From positions 62,001 to 126,000 of the forward strand of contig CATEFX010000019.1 of the NCBI GenBank assembly GCA_949499105.1: a DNA stretch of 64,000 nucleotides, read 5' to 3'. The notes beneath the pieces are model-generated. The model saw only the letters and a list, made by a program, of their open reading frames with translations, did no database searches and was not told the DNA's origin. The position numbers were made by a program, and so were the translations under genes. Numbering within the stretch: position 1 is the stretch's first letter; every line of letters starts with the position of its first letter. The DNA is from Formosa sp. Hel1_33_131 (GTDB lineage Bacteria > Bacteroidota > Bacteroidia > Flavobacteriales > Flavobacteriaceae). Below, in pieces: positions 23,817 to 44,606 of this stretch.

Positions 23817-23822
23817 CCACAA

Positions 23823-24130
23823 AGCAGATCGCCTTATCGCTGTTCGTTTTTAACGAGGGGAGGAAAGTCCGGACACCATAGTGTATTATAGTGGCTAACG
23901 GCCACCAGTTGTGAGACTAGGAAAAGTGCAACAGAAAGAATGTACAGGTTAAGCTGTAGTGAAACCAGGTAAACTCTATAAGGTGCAATGTCATGTATAT
24001 CAGTGCTTGAGCGCGACACGTGCGATACTGAAGGGTAGGCAGCTAAAGTTTACTGGCAACAGTAAACGTAGATAAATGATAAGGGTCACATTTTGTGTGA
24101 TACAGGATCCGGCTTATAGATCTGCTTTTT
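23823..24130 (+). ncRNA. rnpB: RNase P RNA (class A)
   Basis: The catalytic RNA of RNase P, which trims tRNA 5' leaders. Diagnostic elements are present in order: P1 5' strand AGCAGATC (23823-23830), the conserved GAGGAAAGTCCGGACACC block (about 23860-23877), ACAGAAAG (about 23931-23938), GATAAATGATAAGGG (about 24071-24085), and ACAGGATCCGGCTTATAGATC before the closing P1 strand GATCTGCT (24119-24126). A T-run follows and serves as terminator. Length of about 305 nt is normal. It is divergent from dnaX and convergent with rsmD, whose stop lies in the T-run. Confidence 0.96.
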
Positions 24131-24133
24131 TTT

Positions 24134-32466: not shown

Positions 32467-33552
32467 TTATTTGTGTTTGTAAAATGGAAGTTTCACGATT
32501 TTGGCAAGTACTTTTTGTTTTCGAATTGTAATGCGCACCTCGGTTCCAACGGCTGCATGATCTGAAAAAACATAGCCCATACCTATCCCTTTTCCAACAG
32601 AGGGCGCCATGGTCCCCGAAGTTACAATCCCTATAACATTTCCGGAAGTATCTTCAATGGTGTAATCCTTTCTAGGGATGCCACGTTCTACTAATTCAAA
32701 GCCTACTAAGCGACGTTTAGTACCTTCTTGTTTTTCAATTTTAAGTGCTTCTGAATTTGTGAATGGTTTTGTGAATTTAGTAATCCATCCCAATCCTGCT
32801 TCGATAGGAGAAGTTTGGTCATCAATATCATTTCCATACAAACAATACCCCATTTCTAATCGTAAGGTATCACGAGCGGCTAAGCCTATCGGTTTTATGC
32901 CAAAGGAGGCACCTGCTTCAAAAACCTTATCCCAAACCTGTTGAACTTCAGAATTCTTACAGTAAATTTCAAATCCACCACTTCCTGTATATCCAGTCGC
33001 TGAGATGATAACGTGTTCAATATCGGCGAAATCAGCTACCACAAAATTATAGAACTCAATGGAAGCTAAATCGACACTTGACAAGGATTGCATGGCTTCC
33101 ACAGCTTTGGGGCCTTGAATGGCTAATAATGAATAGGCCTCGCTAATGTTTTTTAGTTCAGCGCCCATTGTGTTTTTGGACACAATCCAATTCCAGTCTT
33201 TTTCAATATTACTGGCATTTACCACCAATAAATACGTGTCCTCTTTGATTTTATAGATGATTAAATCATCGACAATGCCGCCAGTTTCATTTGGTAAACA
33301 ACTGTATTGCGCATTTCCGACGGATAATTTAGAAGCATCGTTAGAGGAAACAGACTGAATAAGGTCTAGTGCATTTGGACCTTCAATAAGAAATTCGCCC
33401 ATATGTGAAACGTCAAACACCCCCACGCCATTTCTAACGGTTTCATGTTCGGCATTTACGCCAATGTATTGGACAGGCATAGTGTAACCTGCAAATGGAA
33501 CCATTTTTGCGCCTAATGCTTCGTGCGTAGACTGGAGTGCAATCGTTTTCAT
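32467..33552 (-). CDS. gcvT: Glycine cleavage system aminomethyltransferase (T-protein)
   Basis: A 361-residue T-protein, which transfers the methylene group from H-protein-bound aminomethyl to tetrahydrofolate and releases ammonia. Seen: [61 protein letters not shown] and [18 protein letters not shown]. Normal length. It lies 55 bp after thrC with two possible -7 elements in the gap, so it may be expressed with the thr operon and on its own. No glycine riboswitch seen. Confidence 0.96.
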
Positions 33553-33607: not shown

Positions 33608-34903
33608 TTATAGCTGCGTTAAAAATGCTTTAAATTCTGAATAGTCTTTAATTTCAGTGGCGACTTTTTGTTTATCAATGACCGATTGTATTTGTGGAGG
33701 TAATGGAATGTCGGCGTCGATAACTTCTTTAACTACATCCAAAAACTTAGTCGGATGCGCTGTTTCTAAAAACACACAATGCGCTTTTGGATTGGTTTTT
33801 AAATACGATTTACATCCCAAATAGCCGACCGCTCCATGAGGATCTGCAATATAATTTGTGGTTGTATAAATTTCATCCAATGCTTTTTTAGTTTCTTCAT
33901 CTGTGAAACTATAGGAGGAGAGGTTTGATTTTAAGGTTTCGAAGTCATTTTTATAAATGGCTTGAATACGAATAAAGTTACTTGGGTTTCCTACATCCAT
34001 CGCATTACTAACCGTTTGTACCGATGGTTTTGGATCGTAAGAGTTGGATTTTAAGAATCGGGTTACCACATTATTATCATTGTTAGAGGCGATAAAATGT
34101 TTAATTGGCAATCCTAGTTTTTGTGCAATCATTCCAGCGCATACATTTCCGAAATTTCCACTTGGCACTGAAAAAACAATTTCTTTATGATTTTTTTTCA
34201 ACTGTTTGTAAGCAAACATGAAATAAAACAATTGTGGAAGCCATCGCGCCACGTTGATCGAATTGGCAGATGTTAATTGCATTTTTGAAGTGAGTTCATC
34301 ATCAATAAATGCTCTTTTAACCATCTCCTGACAATCATCAAAAGTCCCTTCGACTTCTAAAGCTGTAATGTTTTGACCTAAAGTCGTTAATTGTTTTTCT
34401 TGAATATTACTAACTTTTCCACTTGGGTACAATATTACCACTCTTACCCCTTTAACGCCCAAAAAGCCATTCGCCACTGCACCGCCGGTATCTCCAGACG
34501 TAGCCACCAATACAGTGACTTCATTGGAATTATTTTGATTAAAATACCCTAAACATCTTGCCATAAATCGAGCCCCAACATCTTTAAAAGCCATAGTTGG
34601 ACCATGAAAAAGTTCTAAAGTTGAAATGGACTCCGTAAGTTTAACCACTGGAAAATCAAAGTTCAGAGTTTCGGAGACGATGGTTTTTAAAACAGCTTCA
34701 GGTATTTCTGGACTGATAAATTGTTGGATCGCTTCAAAGGCGATGTCTTCATTAGAAAGAGTTTCGATGTTCTCAAAAAAGGAGGGATCTAAAGGGGTGA
34801 TGCTTTCAGGGAAATATAAACCTCTATCTGGTGCCAACCCTTTGATGACCGCATTTTCAAATGTGGTGTCTGCTGCGATTTTATTTAAACTATAATAATT
34901 CAT
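33608..34903 (-). CDS. thrC: Threonine synthase
   Basis: A 431-residue PLP enzyme converting O-phosphohomoserine to threonine. The PLP Lys is in HGPTMAFKDVGARFMARCL; the phosphate-binding loop and product site appear as VATSGDTGGAVANGFLG and VPSGNFGNVCAGMIA. Length fits the type found in Gram-negative bacteria. Third gene of the thr operon, 8 bp after thrB. Confidence 0.97.
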   Translation of the reverse strand: MNYYSLNKIAADTTFENAVIKGLAPDRGLYFPESITPLDPSFFENIETLSNEDIAFEAIQQFISPEIPEAVLKTIVSETLNFDFPVVKLTESISTLELFHGPTMAFKDVGARFMARCLGYFNQNNSNEVTVLVATSGDTGGAVANGFLGVKGVRVVILYPSGKVSNIQEKQLTTLGQNITALEVEGTFDDCQEMVKRAFIDDELTSKMQLTSANSINVARWLPQLFYFMFAYKQLKKNHKEIVFSVPSGNFGNVCAGMIAQKLGLPIKHFIASNNDNNVVTRFLKSNSYDPKPSVQTVSNAMDVGNPSNFIRIQAIYKNDFETLKSNLSSYSFTDEETKKALDEIYTTTNYIADPHGAVGYLGCKSYLKTNPKAHCVFLETAHPTKFLDVVKEVIDADIPLPPQIQSVIDKQKVATEIKDYSEFKAFLTQL

Positions 34904-34911
34904 TGCTCGTA

Positions 34912-35835
34912 CTAGTTTATTTGTTTTATGCCGTCTAAATTAATTTTTGAAACATATATTTCAAACGGAATCTCTTGTGTTTTGTAAGTGTCTCTAATCG
35001 ATTGTTCAACTTTAAGAGCCGTTGCTTCACTTTTACATAGATTAAAAACTGAAGGACCAGAGCCAGAGATTCCAGTTCCTAAAGCGCCACTTTCTAAAGC
35101 TGCTTTTTTGATACTCTCAAATCCAGGGATTAATTGACTTCTAAAAGGTTCAACCACCACATCGTTTAAGGAACGACTGATGAGTTCATAATCGTTGGTA
35201 TGTAAACCGTGAATCAGGCTGCCTACATTAGACCATTGTGTGATTGCATTTTTTAAAGAAATCGTTTCTGGCAGTATTTTGCGGGCATCGGCTGTTTTTA
35301 TTTCTATCTGAGGGTGAATCACCACCGCAAATAAATCCGCGGGTGTTGGGATTTGAAGCACTTCTAAAGGGGCTAAACTTTTCACTAACGTAAATCCACC
35401 AAACAGGGCAGGAGCAATATTATCGGCGTGCTCACATTGACTTGCGACGGCTTCTCCTTTCATGGCAAAGGCCGTAAGTTCTAGTGCAGAGTAAGGATTT
35501 CCAAGCAAAACATTCATTCCAAACACACTTCCAGCAGCACTCGCAGAACTGCTACCCACGCCACTTCCTGGTTTGATGTATTTATAGATTTCGATTTCAA
35601 ACCCACAATCGGGATTCGCATCGTGATACATGGCAAGTGCCGAAACACCTGCAACATTTTTTTCAACTTCAAAGGGAAGGTCATAGCCTTCAATTTTGGT
35701 GATTTTAATGCCTTTTTTGATCGTTTTACGGATGATCATTTCATCTCCAATTGCATCGAGACAAAATCCCAACACATCAAATCCACAAGACACATTGGCC
35801 ACGGTTGCAGGAGAAAATAGTTTGACTTCGTTCAT
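34912..35835 (-). CDS. thrB: Homoserine kinase
   Basis: A 307-residue GHMP kinase. The ATP loop PGSGVGSSSASAAG (about residues 91-104) and the C-terminal GTGISGSGPSVFNL are diagnostic. It phosphorylates homoserine for ThrC. Its start overlaps the thrA stop by one base, implying translational coupling. Confidence 0.97.
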   Translation of the reverse strand: MNEVKLFSPATVANVSCGFDVLGFCLDAIGDEMIIRKTIKKGIKITKIEGYDLPFEVEKNVAGVSALAMYHDANPDCGFEIEIYKYIKPGSGVGSSSASAAGSVFGMNVLLGNPYSALELTAFAMKGEAVASQCEHADNIAPALFGGFTLVKSLAPLEVLQIPTPADLFAVVIHPQIEIKTADARKILPETISLKNAITQWSNVGSLIHGLHTNDYELISRSLNDVVVEPFRSQLIPGFESIKKAALESGALGTGISGSGPSVFNLCKSEATALKVEQSIRDTYKTQEIPFEIYVSKINLDGIKQIN

Positions 35836-38288
35836 TAGTTGGTATTTGAAATTCTAATGATATCTGCAAATAAACCGGAGGCGGTGACTTCAGCCCCAGC
35901 CCCAGCGCCTTTAATTATCATGGGTTGATCGGTATAACGATTCGTATAAAACATCACAATATTATCTTTTCCTTCAAGATTATAAAACGGGTGACCCACG
36001 GGAATCTCTTGCAATCCTACTTTAGATTTACCGTCTTTAAACGCTGCGACATATTTTAATTTACATTGGTTTGATTCTGCCAATGAAAAAAGTTTTTGAA
36101 AAACAGCTTCATTCGTTTTTAAGGTTTCATAGAACAATTCTACCGAAGCCGCTTCCATGCATTCTTTGGGTAGAAACGGGTCATTTTCAATGGCATCCAT
36201 TTCTAACATCTCGCCACTTTCACGCGCTAAAATTAATAATTTTCGAGCCACATCGACCCCACTCAAATCTATTCTTGGATCTGGTTCTGTAAACCCTTCT
36301 GCTTGGGCTTGTTTTACCACATCATGAAAGGTGGTGTTTTTATTAAAATTATTAAAAATAAAATTCAAACTTCCTGAAAGTACGGCATTGACCGTATGAA
36401 CTTTATCGCCAGAATTAATTAAATGTTTTAATGTATCGATGACGGGCAAACCTGCGCCTACATTGGTTTCAAACAAAAATGGCACATTGTATTTGTGCGA
36501 AAGCTGCTTTAATTCCTTGTAATTATCAACCGTACTCGAACATGCGATCTTATTACAAGCTACGACTGAAATACTCTGTTTTAGATAATGGGAATAGGTA
36601 TTTGCAATGGCTTCATTTGCTGTGATATCTATAAAAATAGAATTTCTTAAATTAAGATTCTTAGTTGCTTCAAAAAATGCCATTGGTTCTGTGGGTTGTC
36701 CCTTTTTTAATACGGATTCCCAGTCCTCTAAATCCAATCCATTTTCATCAAACACCATGGTTCTAGAATTTGAAAGTGCAATAACCTTTAACTTAATTTT
36801 TAAGGTTGATTTTATATATTTCTTTTGTTGCTTGATTTGCTCAATCAATGATTTTCCAACATTTCCAACACCAGCAATAAATAAGTTGACTTGTTTTGTT
36901 TCTTCTTCAAAAAATTGTTCATGCAAACAATTCAGAGCTTTTTTAACATCCGATTCAGAAATGACGGCTGTGATATTTCGTTCCGAAGCCCCTTGAGCAA
37001 TGGCTCTAATATTGACATTATTTTTACCGAGTGTACTAAACATTTTTCCGCTAATCCCTTGGTGGCTTTTCATTTTATCGCCTATCACTGCAACGATTGA
37101 TAAATGAGATTCAATGCCTAATGGGTCTATTTTAAATAATGAGATTTCATTTTCAAACTCTTTATCAATGACTGCTTTTGCTAACGGCGCATCTCTATCA
37201 GCAATTCCAATACAGATCGAATGCTCGGAGGAGGCTTGCGTAATAATAATGACATTTATTTTTGAATGTGCTAACGTTTCAAACAACCGTTTCGAAAATC
37301 CAGGAATCCCAACCATTCCATTTCCTTGAAGCGTTAATAACGACACATCATTAATATTACTAATTCCTTTGATAGGGGATTGGTGGCCGTTTTCGACAAT
37401 TTTAGTTATTAAAGTCCCTGGGTCTTTAGGAGCTAATGTGTTTTTTATAAGTAAGGGGATGTCTTTTCTAAGAACGGGTTGAACCGTTGGTGGATACAAG
37501 ACCTTCGCCCCAAAATGAGATAATTCGATCGCCTCTAAATAGGATAATTTATTTATAGGTTTCGCATTTTTTACCATTTTTGGGTTGGTTGTAAACATAC
37601 CACTGACATCAGTCCATATTTGAAGCACACTGGCATTCAGTGCAGCCGCAAGGATTGCCGCTGTATAATCCGATCCACCACGCCCTAAGGTTGTAATTTC
37701 ATCATTTTCAGACTTGGAAATAAACCCAGGTAAAATGGTGACCATCTTTTTATTACTTTCAAAATAGGTGGTGATATTGGCGTTTGTTTCTTCAAAATTA
37801 ACGGCTGCATTGGTAAAGTTTGAATCCGTTACAATTAGGTTTTGAGAATTTTTAAGTTGAACATTAACTCCTTTTGACTTCATCGCCTCATAAATGATTA
37901 AGGAGGAAATCAATTCTCCAAAACTGAGAAGTTTATCGGTTGTTCTAGGCGATAATTCATTGATTAAATACACACCATCTAATAATTTCTCAAGTCTTGA
38001 TAAATGGTTCAATACAATATCAGTTGTGATTTCGTGCACTTCTCTGGTTAGCAACCCATCAATCACTTCAATATGTTTTGATCGTAATGCCTCAAAATCT
38101 TCCTTATAACTGTGATCTTTGTTGATGGCTTTATCAGCAGCAATCAATAATTTATCGGTAATACCGCCTACAGCAGATACCACAACCGCAATGTTTTCTG
38201 AAGCAGATTCTTCTTTTACAATTTTTATAACCTTGGATATGTTTTTTGCGGAACCTACAGATGTTCCACCAAATTTTAAAACTTTCAT
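35835..38288 (-). CDS. thrA: Bifunctional aspartokinase I / homoserine dehydrogenase I
   Basis: An 817-residue fusion of the first and third enzymes of threonine synthesis. Aspartokinase is at residues 1 to about 290 (VLKFGGTSVGSAKNI; TLGRGGSDYTAAILAAAL), tandem ACT regulatory domains at about 310-460, and homoserine dehydrogenase from about 465 (NLFIAGVGNVGKSLIEQI; FLFETNVGAGLPVIDTL; EGFTEPDPRIDLSGVDVARK). The ACT domains imply threonine feedback. First structural gene of the operon, 63 bp after the leader peptide stop. Confidence 0.98.
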   Translation of the reverse strand: MKVLKFGGTSVGSAKNISKVIKIVKEESASENIAVVVSAVGGITDKLLIAADKAINKDHSYKEDFEALRSKHIEVIDGLLTREVHEITTDIVLNHLSRLEKLLDGVYLINELSPRTTDKLLSFGELISSLIIYEAMKSKGVNVQLKNSQNLIVTDSNFTNAAVNFEETNANITTYFESNKKMVTILPGFISKSENDEITTLGRGGSDYTAAILAAALNASVLQIWTDVSGMFTTNPKMVKNAKPINKLSYLEAIELSHFGAKVLYPPTVQPVLRKDIPLLIKNTLAPKDPGTLITKIVENGHQSPIKGISNINDVSLLTLQGNGMVGIPGFSKRLFETLAHSKINVIIITQASSEHSICIGIADRDAPLAKAVIDKEFENEISLFKIDPLGIESHLSIVAVIGDKMKSHQGISGKMFSTLGKNNVNIRAIAQGASERNITAVISESDVKKALNCLHEQFFEEETKQVNLFIAGVGNVGKSLIEQIKQQKKYIKSTLKIKLKVIALSNSRTMVFDENGLDLEDWESVLKKGQPTEPMAFFEATKNLNLRNSIFIDITANEAIANTYSHYLKQSISVVACNKIACSSTVDNYKELKQLSHKYNVPFLFETNVGAGLPVIDTLKHLINSGDKVHTVNAVLSGSLNFIFNNFNKNTTFHDVVKQAQAEGFTEPDPRIDLSGVDVARKLLILARESGEMLEMDAIENDPFLPKECMEAASVELFYETLKTNEAVFQKLFSLAESNQCKLKYVAAFKDGKSKVGLQEIPVGHPFYNLEGKDNIVMFYTNRYTDQPMIIKGAGAGAEVTASGLFADIIRISNTN

Positions 38289-38315
38289 TGTAATTTTTTT
38301 TATATTTAATTGAAA

Positions 38316-38337
38316 TATTGTTTGGGATCAAACAATA
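38316..38337 (-). promoter_or_regulatory. Hairpin between thr leader peptide and thrA
   Basis: A perfect 9-bp stem (TATTGTTTG / CAAACAATA, 4-nt loop) between the leader stop and the thrA start. It is followed on the transcribed strand by A/U-rich but not U-only sequence, so it is not a textbook terminator. It could be the attenuator arm or a structure covering the thrA start region. A second perfect 8-bp stem (CAGCACCC / GGGTGCTG, 38363-38382) lies inside the last leader codons; ribosome position on the leader would decide whether it forms. Confidence 0.5.
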
Positions 38338-38351
38338 CATTAGGACGGTAG

Positions 38352-38468
38352 TTATATAATCGCAGCACCCACAAGGGTGCTGATAATCGTTGAAATAGTT
38401 ACAATAACCATATTGCTTTGAATAGATTCCAAAGTTAAAAGAGTTGTAGTATTTTTTGAATATCGCAT
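38352..38468 (-). CDS. Thr/Ile-rich leader peptide of the thr operon
   Basis: A 38-codon ORF with ATG start 20 bp after the end of a TAnnTTTG element and 63 bp upstream of thrA. The product runs MRYSKNTTTLLTLESIQ, then SNMVIVTISTIISTLVGAAII. It has 7 Thr and 7 Ile codons, including a Thr-Thr-Thr run early and VTISTIIST near the end, plus two closing Ile. This composition is that expected of a ribosome-mediated attenuator sensing threonine and isoleucine charging, like the E. coli thr leader, which is similarly rich in Thr and Ile. Unlike the E. coli peptide (21 aa), it is longer and the hairpin overlaps its last codons. No sequence similarity to that peptide is claimed. Confidence 0.8.
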   Translation of the reverse strand: MRYSKNTTTLLTLESIQSNMVIVTISTIISTLVGAAII

Positions 38469-38487
38469 TATATCATAGTTTACTATT

Positions 38488-38495
38488 CAAAAGTA
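38488..38495 (-). promoter_or_regulatory. Promoter -7 element for the thr leader and operon
   Basis: Reads TACTTTTG on the minus strand. Transcription would begin about 13 bp before the leader peptide ATG and give a leader RNA of about 190 nt before thrA. Confidence 0.65.
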
Positions 38496-38724
38496 TTACT
38501 TTTACAGGTATAAAAAAATTAATATCTAAATTTTACATATTATTGAATTTAGGGGGTATATATTTCTAATAATTAAGCAAAAGGGGACCTTTGCTAAACT
38601 TTCATCAATCCCATGTAAAATTGCAATTATTTAATAAAAATAATAAGCTTAAAATGTTGATTACTATTTAATAAATAATCATTCAAAATGAAGTTTTTAT
38701 ATCAAATAATCTAATCTTAATTAT
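38496..38724. other. AT-rich divergent regulatory region between thr leader and glyA
   Basis: About 230 bp without a gene. It contains a small imperfect hairpin at 38576-38595 (AGCAAAAGG / CCTTTGCT) and many A/T tracts. I see no riboswitch consensus and no ORF of note. Confidence 0.35.
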
Positions 38725-38760: not shown

Positions 38761-40032
38761 ATGCAACGCGACGAACAAATTTTTGAATTAATTGAAGCTG
38801 AAAAAAGCCGTCAACTCAATGGTCTTGAATTGATTGCTTCAGAAAATTTCACAAGCGAACAAGTCATGGAAGCGACCGGTTCGGTATTGACCAACAAATA
38901 TGCCGAAGGCTACCCTGGAAAGCGCTATTATGGTGGCTGTGAAGTGGTCGATGAAGTAGAGCTAATCGCTATTGATCGTGCCAAAACACTCTTTGGAGCG
39001 GTATGGGCAAATGTTCAACCACACTCTGGTAGTCAAGCCAATACGGCCGTCTTTCATGCCTGTCTGAAAGTCGGTGATAAAATCTTAGGATTTGATTTAT
39101 CTCATGGTGGACATCTGACTCATGGATCACCCGTTAATTTTTCTGGTCGTTTGTACGATCCTGTATTTTACGGCGTTGAAAAAGAAACAGGGGTTTTAAA
39201 CTATGATAAAATTCAAGAAATAGCCACCAAAGAACAACCAAAACTAATTATCGCAGGTGCCTCTGCTTACTCAAGAGATATTGATTTTGAGCGTTTTAGA
39301 GTCATTGCAGACAGTGTCGGTGCTATTTTATTAGCCGATATTTCGCACCCTTCTGGGATGATCGCCAAAGGCCTTTTAAATGATCCCATACCACATTGCC
39401 ATATTGTTACTACTACTACTCATAAGACTCTAAGAGGTCCAAGAGGTGGATTGATTATGATGGGGAAGGATTTTGAAAATCCGTTTGGAATCACTTTAAA
39501 ATCTGGAAAGGTACGTATGATGTCTTCTTTATTGGATTCTGCAATTTTCCCTGGCAACCAAGGCGGCCCTTTAGAGCATGTGATTGCTGGAAAAGCAATC
39601 GCTTTTGGAGAAGCATTAACCGATGAATTTTTACATTATATTTTACAAGTAAAAAAGAATGCGGATGCCATGGCGAAAGCGTTTGTAAAGCGTGATTATC
39701 ACTTAATTTCAGGTGGAACCGATAACCACATGATGTTGATTGATTTGAGAAATAAAAACATCACTGGAAAAGATGCCGAAAAAGCACTTGTAAAAGCAGA
39801 TATTACCGTGAACAAAAACATGGTTCCTTTTGATACTCAAAGCCCGTTTGTCACTTCAGGGATTAGAGTGGGTACTCCCGCAATTACCACGCGTGGATTG
39901 GTAGAATCGGATATGGAAACGATTGTGGATCTAATTGATGAAGTTCTTAACAATCATGAAGATGATGCAAAACTTGAAGCAATCTCAGAAAAAGTGAATG
40001 TGATGATGAGTGATCGTCCGTTGTTTTCCTAA
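38761..40032 (+). CDS. glyA: Serine hydroxymethyltransferase
   Basis: A 423-residue PLP enzyme interconverting serine and glycine with tetrahydrofolate. Seen: [35 protein letters not shown], the PLP Lys in [15 protein letters not shown], and the C-terminal [15 protein letters not shown]. Normal length. It has its own promoter and a strong terminator just after the stop codon. Functionally linked to gcvT on the other strand through one-carbon metabolism, though not in one operon. Confidence 0.98.
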
Positions 40033-40517: not shown

Positions 40518-40525
40518 TATCTTTG
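40518..40525 (+). promoter_or_regulatory. Promoter -7 element for the toxin-antitoxin pair
   Basis: TATCTTTG, matching TAnnTTTG, 21 bp upstream of the antitoxin ATG at 40547. It contains an in-frame TTG that should not be taken as the start. Confidence 0.55.
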
Positions 40526-40546
40526 TTTAAACGATATAACATTATT

Positions 40547-40786
40547 ATGGATATTCAATTAGAAAAATATAAGTTGATAGAATGGCTAATGAATCTTAAA
40601 GATGAGTCTGTAATTTCAAAACTAAAGACGATTAAAAGTAGTGTTTCCAAATCTTCTGACTGGGAAGGTGATATTTCCGATACGGAAAAATTATTGATAG
40701 AAGCGGGGTTAAAAGATATTGAGAAAGGGAACACATTTACTCATGAGCAAGTAATGAAAGAAATTAACGAAGTTTACGGTATTTAG
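40547..40786 (+). CDS. Antitoxin of a RelE/ParE-type toxin-antitoxin pair
   Basis: A 79-residue acidic, helical protein (MDIQLEKYKLIEWLMNLKDE at the start; ISDTEKLLIEAGLKDIEKGN and THEQVMKEINEVYG at the end). The central SVSKSSDW and the C-terminal helix match the small Bacteroidota antitoxins encoded just before RelE/ParE toxins. The N-terminal half probably dimerises and the C-terminal half wraps the toxin. The ATG at 40547 is chosen; the upstream TTG lies in the promoter. Toxin gene follows after 3 bp. Confidence 0.8.
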   Translation: MDIQLEKYKLIEWLMNLKDESVISKLKTIKSSVSKSSDWEGDISDTEKLLIEAGLKDIEKGNTFTHEQVMKEINEVYGI

Positions 40787-40789
40787 TCA

Positions 40790-41107
40790 ATGGAAATAGT
40801 TTGGACGAAACTAGCAAAGATTACTTATATAGAAGTCCTTGAAAATCTTAAAAAAAGATGGACAAAAAAAGAACTGAAAAACTTTAAGGACTTAACCAAC
40901 GAGTTATTGGAAAAGGTTAAAAATGAACAAGTAGAGCATTTAGTTGCAAATCAAAATTTAGGCGTTCGAAAAGGAGTCGTTCACAAAAATGTTTCTCTAT
41001 TTTATAGAGAAGATAGAAATAATAAAAAAATTTATTTGATTACTTTTTTTAATAATCGAATGGATCCAAAAACATTGAAAAATTTGTTGAAGCAAAAAGT
41101 GATATGA
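40790..41107 (+). CDS. RelE/ParE-family toxin
   Basis: A 105-residue basic protein with the RelE/ParE fold signature: IVWTKLAKITYIEVLENLKK (first helix), a central strand region VRKGVVHKNVSLFYRED and the C-terminal IYLITFFNNRMDP. Toxins of this type either cleave mRNA on the ribosome or inhibit gyrase; which of the two cannot be read here. Forms an operon with the preceding antitoxin, and a terminator hairpin overlaps its last codons. Confidence 0.85.
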   Translation: MEIVWTKLAKITYIEVLENLKKRWTKKELKNFKDLTNELLEKVKNEQVEHLVANQNLGVRKGVVHKNVSLFYREDRNNKKIYLITFFNNRMDPKTLKNLLKQKVI

Positions 41108-44494: not shown

Positions 44495-44502
44495 TATATT
44501 TG
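44495..44502 (+). promoter_or_regulatory. Promoter -7 element for the SRP RNA
   Basis: TATATTTG, matching TAnnTTTG, ending 4 bp before the predicted 5' end of the RNA. Confidence 0.65.
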
Positions 44503-44506
44503 CCCT

Positions 44507-44606
44507 GGCAAGTCCTACACAACTAGCTCCTGTTGAATCCTCCAGGGCGGGAACGCAGCAAAGGTAAATGGTTGTAGCGGTGTGATGTAGGTAGCTTGCC
44601 ATTTTT
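44507..44606 (+). ncRNA. ffs: Signal recognition particle RNA (4.5S type)
   Basis: A small bacterial-type SRP RNA of about 95-100 nt. Outer strands GGCAAG (44507-44512) and CTTGCC (44595-44600) pair; the Ffh-binding apical part shows the conserved asymmetric loop sequences TCCTCCAGGGCGGGAACGC and GCAGCAAAGG around about 44539-44564. A short T-run follows (44602-44607). It partners Ffh in cotranslational membrane targeting. Confidence 0.93.

Follow-up and report, generated by a model that had tools for sequence, protein, structure and literature searches.

Threonine/isoleucine leader peptides upstream of thrABC in Flavobacteriaceae: a probable codon sensor joined to a candidate output module without a U-tract

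The leader of the enteric thr operon, thrL, carries threonine and isoleucine codons. Leaders linked to Rho are known as well, among them tnaC, which senses free tryptophan. A comparative survey of attenuation that Lopatovskaya and colleagues published in 2010 may list Bacteroidetes. The toiL leader is likewise Rho-linked, senses antibiotics and, according to the accessible part of its description, acts first through the translation of the next gene (PMC12121999). In the same family as the organism considered here, the accessible part of a transcriptome study of Flavobacterium psychrophilum speaks of 'strong clues' that amino acid operons have leader peptide attenuation in their upstream regions and counts pheA and hisG among the structured 5' elements that are conserved in the family; in that part, pheA and hisG are named but not thrA, and no mechanism is given (PMC9723704). 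Furthermore, short ORFs reminiscent of leader peptides appear in the accessible text on Bacteroides thetaiotaomicron (PMC7366714), and a Bacteroidetes motif bears the name Bacteroid-trp in what is accessible of Weinberg 2010 (PMC2864571). Our search of the literature by title and abstract, with most subscription papers outside its scope, returned no description of a thr leader in Bacteroidota. The comparison presented below points to leader-peptide control of threonine synthesis as widely conserved in a phylum for which we found such control only mentioned in passing, with an output signal that does not fit the textbook terminator switch.

The window, that is the whole stretch of 64,000 nucleotides that was analysed, encodes on its minus strand thrA (35835..38288; bifunctional aspartate kinase/homoserine dehydrogenase I; NCBIfam NF006959, 1028 bits), thrB (34912..35835; homoserine kinase; NCBIfam NF002288 and TIGR00191) and thrC (33608..34903; threonine synthase; NCBIfam TIGR00260), the identities of all three being confirmed by NCBIfam equivalogs. 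Since thrABC is flanked by glyA (serine hydroxymethyltransferase; 38761-40032, plus strand), the divergent neighbour of the leader, and after thrC by a gene that appears gcvT-like by eye (32467-33552, minus strand), glycine and threonine genes cluster at this locus. Further along the window, two small adjoining ORFs (40523-41107, plus strand) resemble a RelE-type toxin-antitoxin pair by eye, and the genes for RNase P RNA (23821-24132, plus strand) and the small SRP RNA (44499-44605, plus strand) were noted.

Upstream of thrA, and on the same strand as all features described in the following, lies the octamer TACTTTTG (38488..38495, minus strand), which we take to be a promoter -7 element of the TAnnTTTG type. 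It precedes by 19 nt the ATG at 38468 of a 38-codon leader ORF, MRYSKNTTTLLTLESIQSNMVIVTISTIISTLVGAAII (38352..38468, minus strand), which contains 7 Thr and 7 Ile codons and whose frame is kept in relatives. Immediately before hairpin 1 this ORF is enriched in Thr and Ile codons, forming the cluster VTISTIIST (38376..38402, minus strand) that ends at an ACC codon in the hairpin itself. Hairpin 1, CAGCACCC-TTGT-GGGTGCTG (38363..38382, minus strand), indeed lies within the last codons of the ORF, at 38382-38363 inside 38468-38352, as had been predicted. It is followed by a YATAT element (38354..38358, minus strand) in a G-free, AU-rich stretch (38360-38347) that overlaps the last codons and the stop codon in the window, and then by hairpin 2, TATTGTTTG-ATCC-CAAACAATA (38316..38337, minus strand), with an AU-rich stem of 9 bp; neither hairpin is followed by a U-run in the window. 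The arrangement of promoter box, 38-codon ORF, two hairpins and thrA given in the original prediction therefore stands. Promoter box and leader ORF presumably belong to the same transcript as thrABC. The locus thus resembles enteric thrL in that a short Thr/Ile-rich ORF is located directly upstream of thrABC with its codons beside a hairpin, and the 197-nt leader folds with a z-score of -2.9.

An ORF in an AT-rich intergenic region might arise by chance, with a DNA or RNA element being the only thing conserved. Some ORF of at least 38 codons was present in 323 of 2000 dinucleotide shuffles of the window's thrA intergenic region, and therefore the length of the leader ORF alone is no proof. An ORF of at least 30 codons that is equally rich in Thr/Ile and has at least 7 Thr codons, however, occurred in 0/2000 of these shuffles. 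For the comparison with relatives, ThrA was searched for in 18 genomes of the genus, in 249 sampled genomes of the family and in a named collection; it was found in 18/18, in 202/249 (at E 1e-150) and in at least 573 stretches, respectively. From these we assembled 126 thrA upstream regions, namely 18 of the genus, 28 from the 202 positive family genomes (30 loci minus two genus members that were already included) and 80 from the at least 573 relatives of the named collection. The core of hairpin 1 was located in 104 of the 126 regions; the other 22, some of them judged by eye, did not enter the frame counts, three being repeats of a contig already included (L060, L062 and L076) and 19 being left out for want of a clear hairpin 1 (L019, L020, L055, L073, L075, L110, L111, L112, L115, L121, L122, L131, L132 and L134-L139), whereas L072, L092 and L097 were restored to the frame-count set by hand. 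As the loci are phylogenetically clumped, counts of loci are not counts of independent events.

An ATG-started frame of at least 12 codons runs into hairpin 1 in the ACC frame in 100 of the 104 leaders, as opposed to 3 and 7 leaders for the other two frames. Over the 15 codons that lead into hairpin 1, the mean is 3.93 for Thr as compared to 1.55 in dinucleotide shuffles and 3.04 for Ile as compared to 1.33 (104 leaders), and at least two Thr are present among these codons in 95/104 leaders, the last ACC codon in hairpin 1 being Thr by definition of the frame. A TAnnTTTG box precedes an in-frame ATG in 92 of the 100 leader ORFs at a median of 18 nt, while in shuffled 200-nt regions it is found anywhere in 15%. 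The rest of the peptide drifts: nonsynonymous to synonymous codon changes relative to the three nearest relatives amount to 3:2, 3:2 and 11:1, the peptide as a whole gives no sign of conservation, as is expected of a leader, and leader length varies widely among relatives. In agreement with what characterizes leader-peptide attenuators, a short ORF thus stands upstream of the cognate biosynthetic operon and an excess of end-product codons is kept while the remaining sequence changes, so that the predicted ORF withstands the comparison. By this comparison the leader ORF of the window is genuine, and we regard a chance ORF as extremely unlikely. A thr leader of this kind is present in most of the Flavobacteriaceae examined and in some relatives. 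By eye, two members of the genus (L019 and L020) have lost hairpin 1 and most Thr codons, which suggests that they have lost this control.

The codon and hairpin anatomy, together with the long-established control by leader peptides, leads us to conclude that Thr/Ile would very probably be sensed by stalling of the ribosome on the leader codons. The balance between the two amino acids differs between groups of leaders. Among the last 12 codons, Ile makes up 37% and Thr 12.5% in the window's genus (16 leaders), whose balance is shifted towards Ile, whereas Thr leads with 34% over 20% for Ile in the 88 leaders outside the genus; besides threonyl-tRNA, isoleucyl-tRNA would be sensed, in this genus perhaps predominantly. 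Two stretches of the peptide that the original prediction had singled out must be viewed differently. The early Thr-Thr-Thr is part of the 38-codon ORF and yet is not conserved across the genus. The closing Ile-Ile was considered as a pair of regulatory codons and rejected, since it is explained by the conserved YATAT element that overlaps the last codons in the window: of 75 leaders with YATA(T) from outside the genus, 69 have it wholly 3' of the stop codon. The closing pair therefore does not speak for sensing of Ile, for which the Ile enrichment further upstream still counts.

What is conserved downstream of the codons is a hairpin, an AU-rich stretch and a second hairpin. The perfect 8-bp hairpin predicted as hairpin 1 is present in the window, but only the two nearest kin, L004 and L005, have a hairpin of this length; the conserved core consists of 4 bp, ACCC/GGGU with a loop of 3-5 (38378-38367 in the window), and is weak (-4.8 kcal/mol). 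Because hairpin 1 hardly varies in either of the two clades that were aligned and chosen by eye (22 Algibacter/Tamlana-like leaders, in which it is invariant, and 15 genus leaders, L011 being left out), covariation is unable to prove its pairing, and what supports the predicted pairing is complementarity that is conserved, together with variants of the loop and the stem in other leaders. The hairpin 1 picks used for the frame, codon, stop-codon, terminator, pairing and distance counts had been scored with the YATA motif, and the following YATA counts and base profile are consequently biased towards YATA. With these picks, G amounts to 0-2% at positions 8-17 and to 3-4% at positions 18-19 after hairpin 1 in the 104 leaders, and YATA follows 6-13 nt after the hairpin in 92/104 leaders and is absent there in 12/104; in 83 of these 92, YATA and the last G of hairpin 1 stand 8-12 nt apart. 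With hairpin picks blind to the motif, YATAT is found 6-16 nt downstream in 82/111 cases as compared to 10% in shuffled sequences, 29/111 being without it. A C-richer patch separates the YATAT stretch from hairpin 2.

Hairpin 2 has a stem of at least 7 bp in 66/104 leaders, with its centre about 41 nt after hairpin 1 (interquartile range 39-43.5), and the best hairpin in this region beats shuffles in 88/104. In the 22 Algibacter/Tamlana-like leaders it covaries, with 6 of 8 pairs changed on both sides and 0/500 shuffles matching this; among the 15 genus leaders, changes on both sides are absent from every pair of hairpin 2. As judged from this covariation, hairpin 2 is a real RNA hairpin in one sister clade.

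How would such a module act on thrABC? The original prediction had the operon controlled in the same way as its gamma-proteobacterial counterparts, and this holds for the Thr/Ile leader peptide upstream of thrABC but is not supported for the output, where no competition between antiterminator and terminator is detectable. A classical attenuator as in the enteric thr and trp operons, in which an antiterminator and an intrinsic terminator exclude each other and the terminator is merely hard to see, would use identical codon sensing, and the leaders of hisG and of PDT (pheA-type) in the window's own genome and in relatives are of just that kind. As observed outside the window, a textbook His leader, MKLSLFIYHHHLLTSDQAR, precedes hisG (L175) and a textbook Phe-rich leader, MTTVNYIFYSFYYFFFRKKNETLCM, precedes PDT (L187) in the own genome, each followed by a U-run terminator. 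These leaders resemble the thr leader in having an ORF rich in cognate codons upstream of the operon, but they mostly possess strong U-run terminators and competing pairings, and the thr leader shows neither. In control leaders from ten genomes, the window's own included, a strict terminator (stem plus five T) was detected in 8/10 for hisG and in 8/10 for PDT, as compared to 1/104 thr leaders. The predicted lack of an intrinsic terminator after the hairpins is accordingly confirmed in 103 of 104 leaders by the strict test, while by the loose test 33/104 thr leaders pass, along with 9/10 hisG and 8/10 PDT leaders. As only 2/520 shuffled thr regions meet the loose criteria, a weak intrinsic terminator may be present; most of the thr positives are hairpin 1 with a broken U-tract.

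The search for competing pairings likewise speaks against a classical switch. In the 92 thr leaders with a hairpin 2, its 5' arm pairs with upstream RNA hardly better than expected by chance (z -0.5 on average, 22% below -1.5), whereas the 5' arm of the terminator and its upstream partner give a mean z of -2.5 in nine his and of -2.4 in eight phe leaders, with values below -1.5 in 9/9 and 6/8, respectively. These controls comprise 9/10 his and 8/10 phe leaders, as those without a visible leader terminator were left out, and they include L181 (phe), for which the wrong hairpin was picked (z 0.0). Two specific pairings were considered and rejected. Between the leader strand and the 5' arm of hairpin 2, the real partners pair no better than permuted ones (0.40 for the 22 Algibacter-like leaders and 0.82 for the 15 genus leaders); L048 and L053 had looked compensatory by eye, which is unsupported across the 22 sequences. 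An anti-hairpin in which the C-rich stretch downstream of YATAT would pair with the 3' arm of hairpin 1 equals shuffles, and permuted partners pair better. Thus, among the 104 thr leaders we find, by the strict test and with one exception, no terminator hairpin with a U-run before the first gene, and no mutually exclusive antiterminator pairing, and a concealed classical attenuator appears unlikely to us. Ordinary terminators do occur in the thr leaders of L136 (Mucilaginibacter) and of L215 and L218 (two genomes of one other family), which lends the classical reading some weight; the competing partner scores z -2.8, -2.1 and -0.9 (the last for L218) and is clear in two of the three. Like the window's leader, these are Thr/Ile-rich and located upstream of thrA; unlike it, they end in a T-run intrinsic terminator and by eye lack the module of hairpin 1 and YATAT.

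We propose instead that the leader acts in cis as a ribosome-mediated attenuator of thrABC that would sense Thr-tRNA, and in which Rho would be the likeliest factor to terminate a paused polymerase, a proposal that in its entirety we consider evenly poised between right and wrong. RNA polymerase would pause when the 3' end of the transcript is near YATAT, and hairpin 1, lodged in the exit channel, would hold it there. With Thr and Ile plentiful, the ribosome would reach the stop codon, the leader RNA, poor in G and richer in C, would be left uncovered, and termination of the paused polymerase would follow with no need of a U-tract, Rho being its most likely agent. With Thr or Ile in short supply, the ribosome would stall on the codons beside hairpin 1 so that this hairpin does not form; the stalled ribosome would also block Rho, and the polymerase would escape into thrA. 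This output in full, pause and Rho together, is offered tentatively and with slightly more doubt than trust. In hairpin-stabilised pausing the RNA duplex is located 11-12 nt from the paused 3' end, according to the accessible part of the report (PMC12288461), and the spacing between hairpin 1 and YATAT, as measured in the sequence, is near that value. Rho, by its RNA-binding domain, is encoded in all 8 of the 8 genomes searched. The leader RNA contains more C (0.20) than G (0.11), a figure obtained without control leaders that may only reflect the ACN codons; to our knowledge, Rho sites are not recognisable from sequence. As with tnaC and toiL, the position of the ribosome on a short ORF would decide the action of Rho and no intrinsic terminator would be needed; as far as the accessible description of toiL goes, the window's leader differs from both in using starvation codons and in that for it we infer the involvement of Rho.

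Would the decision be taken at the level of translation instead? In such a case, a stalled ribosome would refold the leader and thereby change translation of thrA or reinitiation between leader and thrA, with hairpin 2 as the sequestering element. Such a role would fit the covariation of hairpin 2 in one clade and the position of its centre, which tends to fall 48-56 nt ahead of the thrA start codon (interquartile range; 66/104 leaders with a stem of at least 7 bp). In the window, however, 27 nt separate the end of hairpin 2 from the thrA ATG, which the hairpin leaves uncovered, the distances to the ATG vary from 38 to 220 nt for hairpin 2 and from 57 to 263 nt for hairpin 1, and the search for an alternative pairing found none. 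We consider translational control rather improbable. Given so wide a spread of hairpin 1-to-thrA distances, a block of thrA translation, which the original prediction had also entertained, is less likely than a transcriptional step; then again, the interquartile range of this distance is only 81-95 nt, and some constraint on it may therefore exist. Processing or stability of the RNA might depend on the ribosome as well, in that a nuclease would cut the AU stretch between the hairpins whenever no stalled ribosome protects it, the processed 5' end being capped by hairpin 2. The AU-rich, almost G-free stretch between two hairpins and the covariation of hairpin 2 as a structure without a terminator would be in line with this, but it does not predict the likeness of the spacing to that found with a paused polymerase, and we regard it as quite doubtful.

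Is the thr leader then representative of a separate class? The sensor is of a known kind; the conserved candidate output module would be a new variant. Unlike enteric thrL, the thr leaders have no strict U-run terminator (103/104), no detectable antiterminator pairing and a variable length, and the window's leader is without a match in Pfam or Rfam. The models for thr leaders are Thr_leader of Rfam and Leader_Thr of Pfam, neither of which it matches. Rfam returned no leader match in the window or in eight relatives, and Pfam and NCBIfam returned none for four leaders, very short peptides being hard for HMMER. A distinct attenuator class of the Flavobacteriaceae and some other Bacteroidia may exist, in which a starvation-sensing ORF would be combined with a fixed module of hairpin, AU/YATAT stretch and hairpin that halts or terminates transcription without a U-tract or refolding, seen so far on thr only, in cells whose his and phe attenuators rely on terminators; we hold this somewhat short of an even chance. 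As the his and phe leaders of the same genomes are of the textbook type, the thr leader provides a natural internal comparison for control of the polymerase without a U-run, be it by pausing, Rho or processing.

In a sample across the class, thrA was found in 19 of 90 genomes, two of them already known, and the 17 upstream regions were judged by eye. The module of hairpin 1 and CATATA was seen in L207 and L209, a Thr leader with a hairpin-1-like stem and no clear YATAT in L216 and L217, a Thr-rich leader with a different hairpin in L210, and terminators in L215 and L218, while L214 has an ORF that looks like a leader, with a stem resembling a terminator and an interrupted U-tract; no leader was seen in the remaining 9 of the 17. 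A general attenuator module of Bacteroidota was considered and rejected, as the covariance model is weak and the 20 of its other hits that were viewed lack a recognisable cognate-codon leader. In the own genome the thr leader ranks only fourth of 7 hits (E 3.1), whereas among the first-pass candidates scored, at most 150 per genome, it was found in 8 of 8 other genomes and was the top hit in 7/8. No cognate-codon leader was recognised by eye among 20 other hits of the model (6 of them in the own genome), one of which (L155) is found directly in front of a gene resembling that for glutaminyl-tRNA synthetase. In place of the thr-type module, the his and phe leaders, and some of the ilv leaders, have ordinary terminators, a terminator being present within 170 nt in 2 of the 9 ilvD regions examined (of 16 matches). 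Upstream of ilvD, Ile/Val-rich leader ORFs were noted in L192, L193 and L189, with U-run terminators in L192 and L193.

Two further observations concern the sequences collected here. The ThrA proteins of L115 and L122, MAGs labelled Pyrinomonadaceae without a clear hairpin 1, are 52-53% identical to that of the window, for which either a transfer or mislabelled bins are possible. In addition, a 61-nt interspersed repeat, without an Rfam match in the six loci scanned, occurs in 13 of 18 genus genomes in up to 11 copies, including G000:C19:43147-43205 and C26:60033-60089 in the own genome. It is also present upstream of ilvD in L190 and, as two tandem copies, upstream of thrA in L011, where it stretches the distance between hairpin 1 and thrA to about 260 nt.
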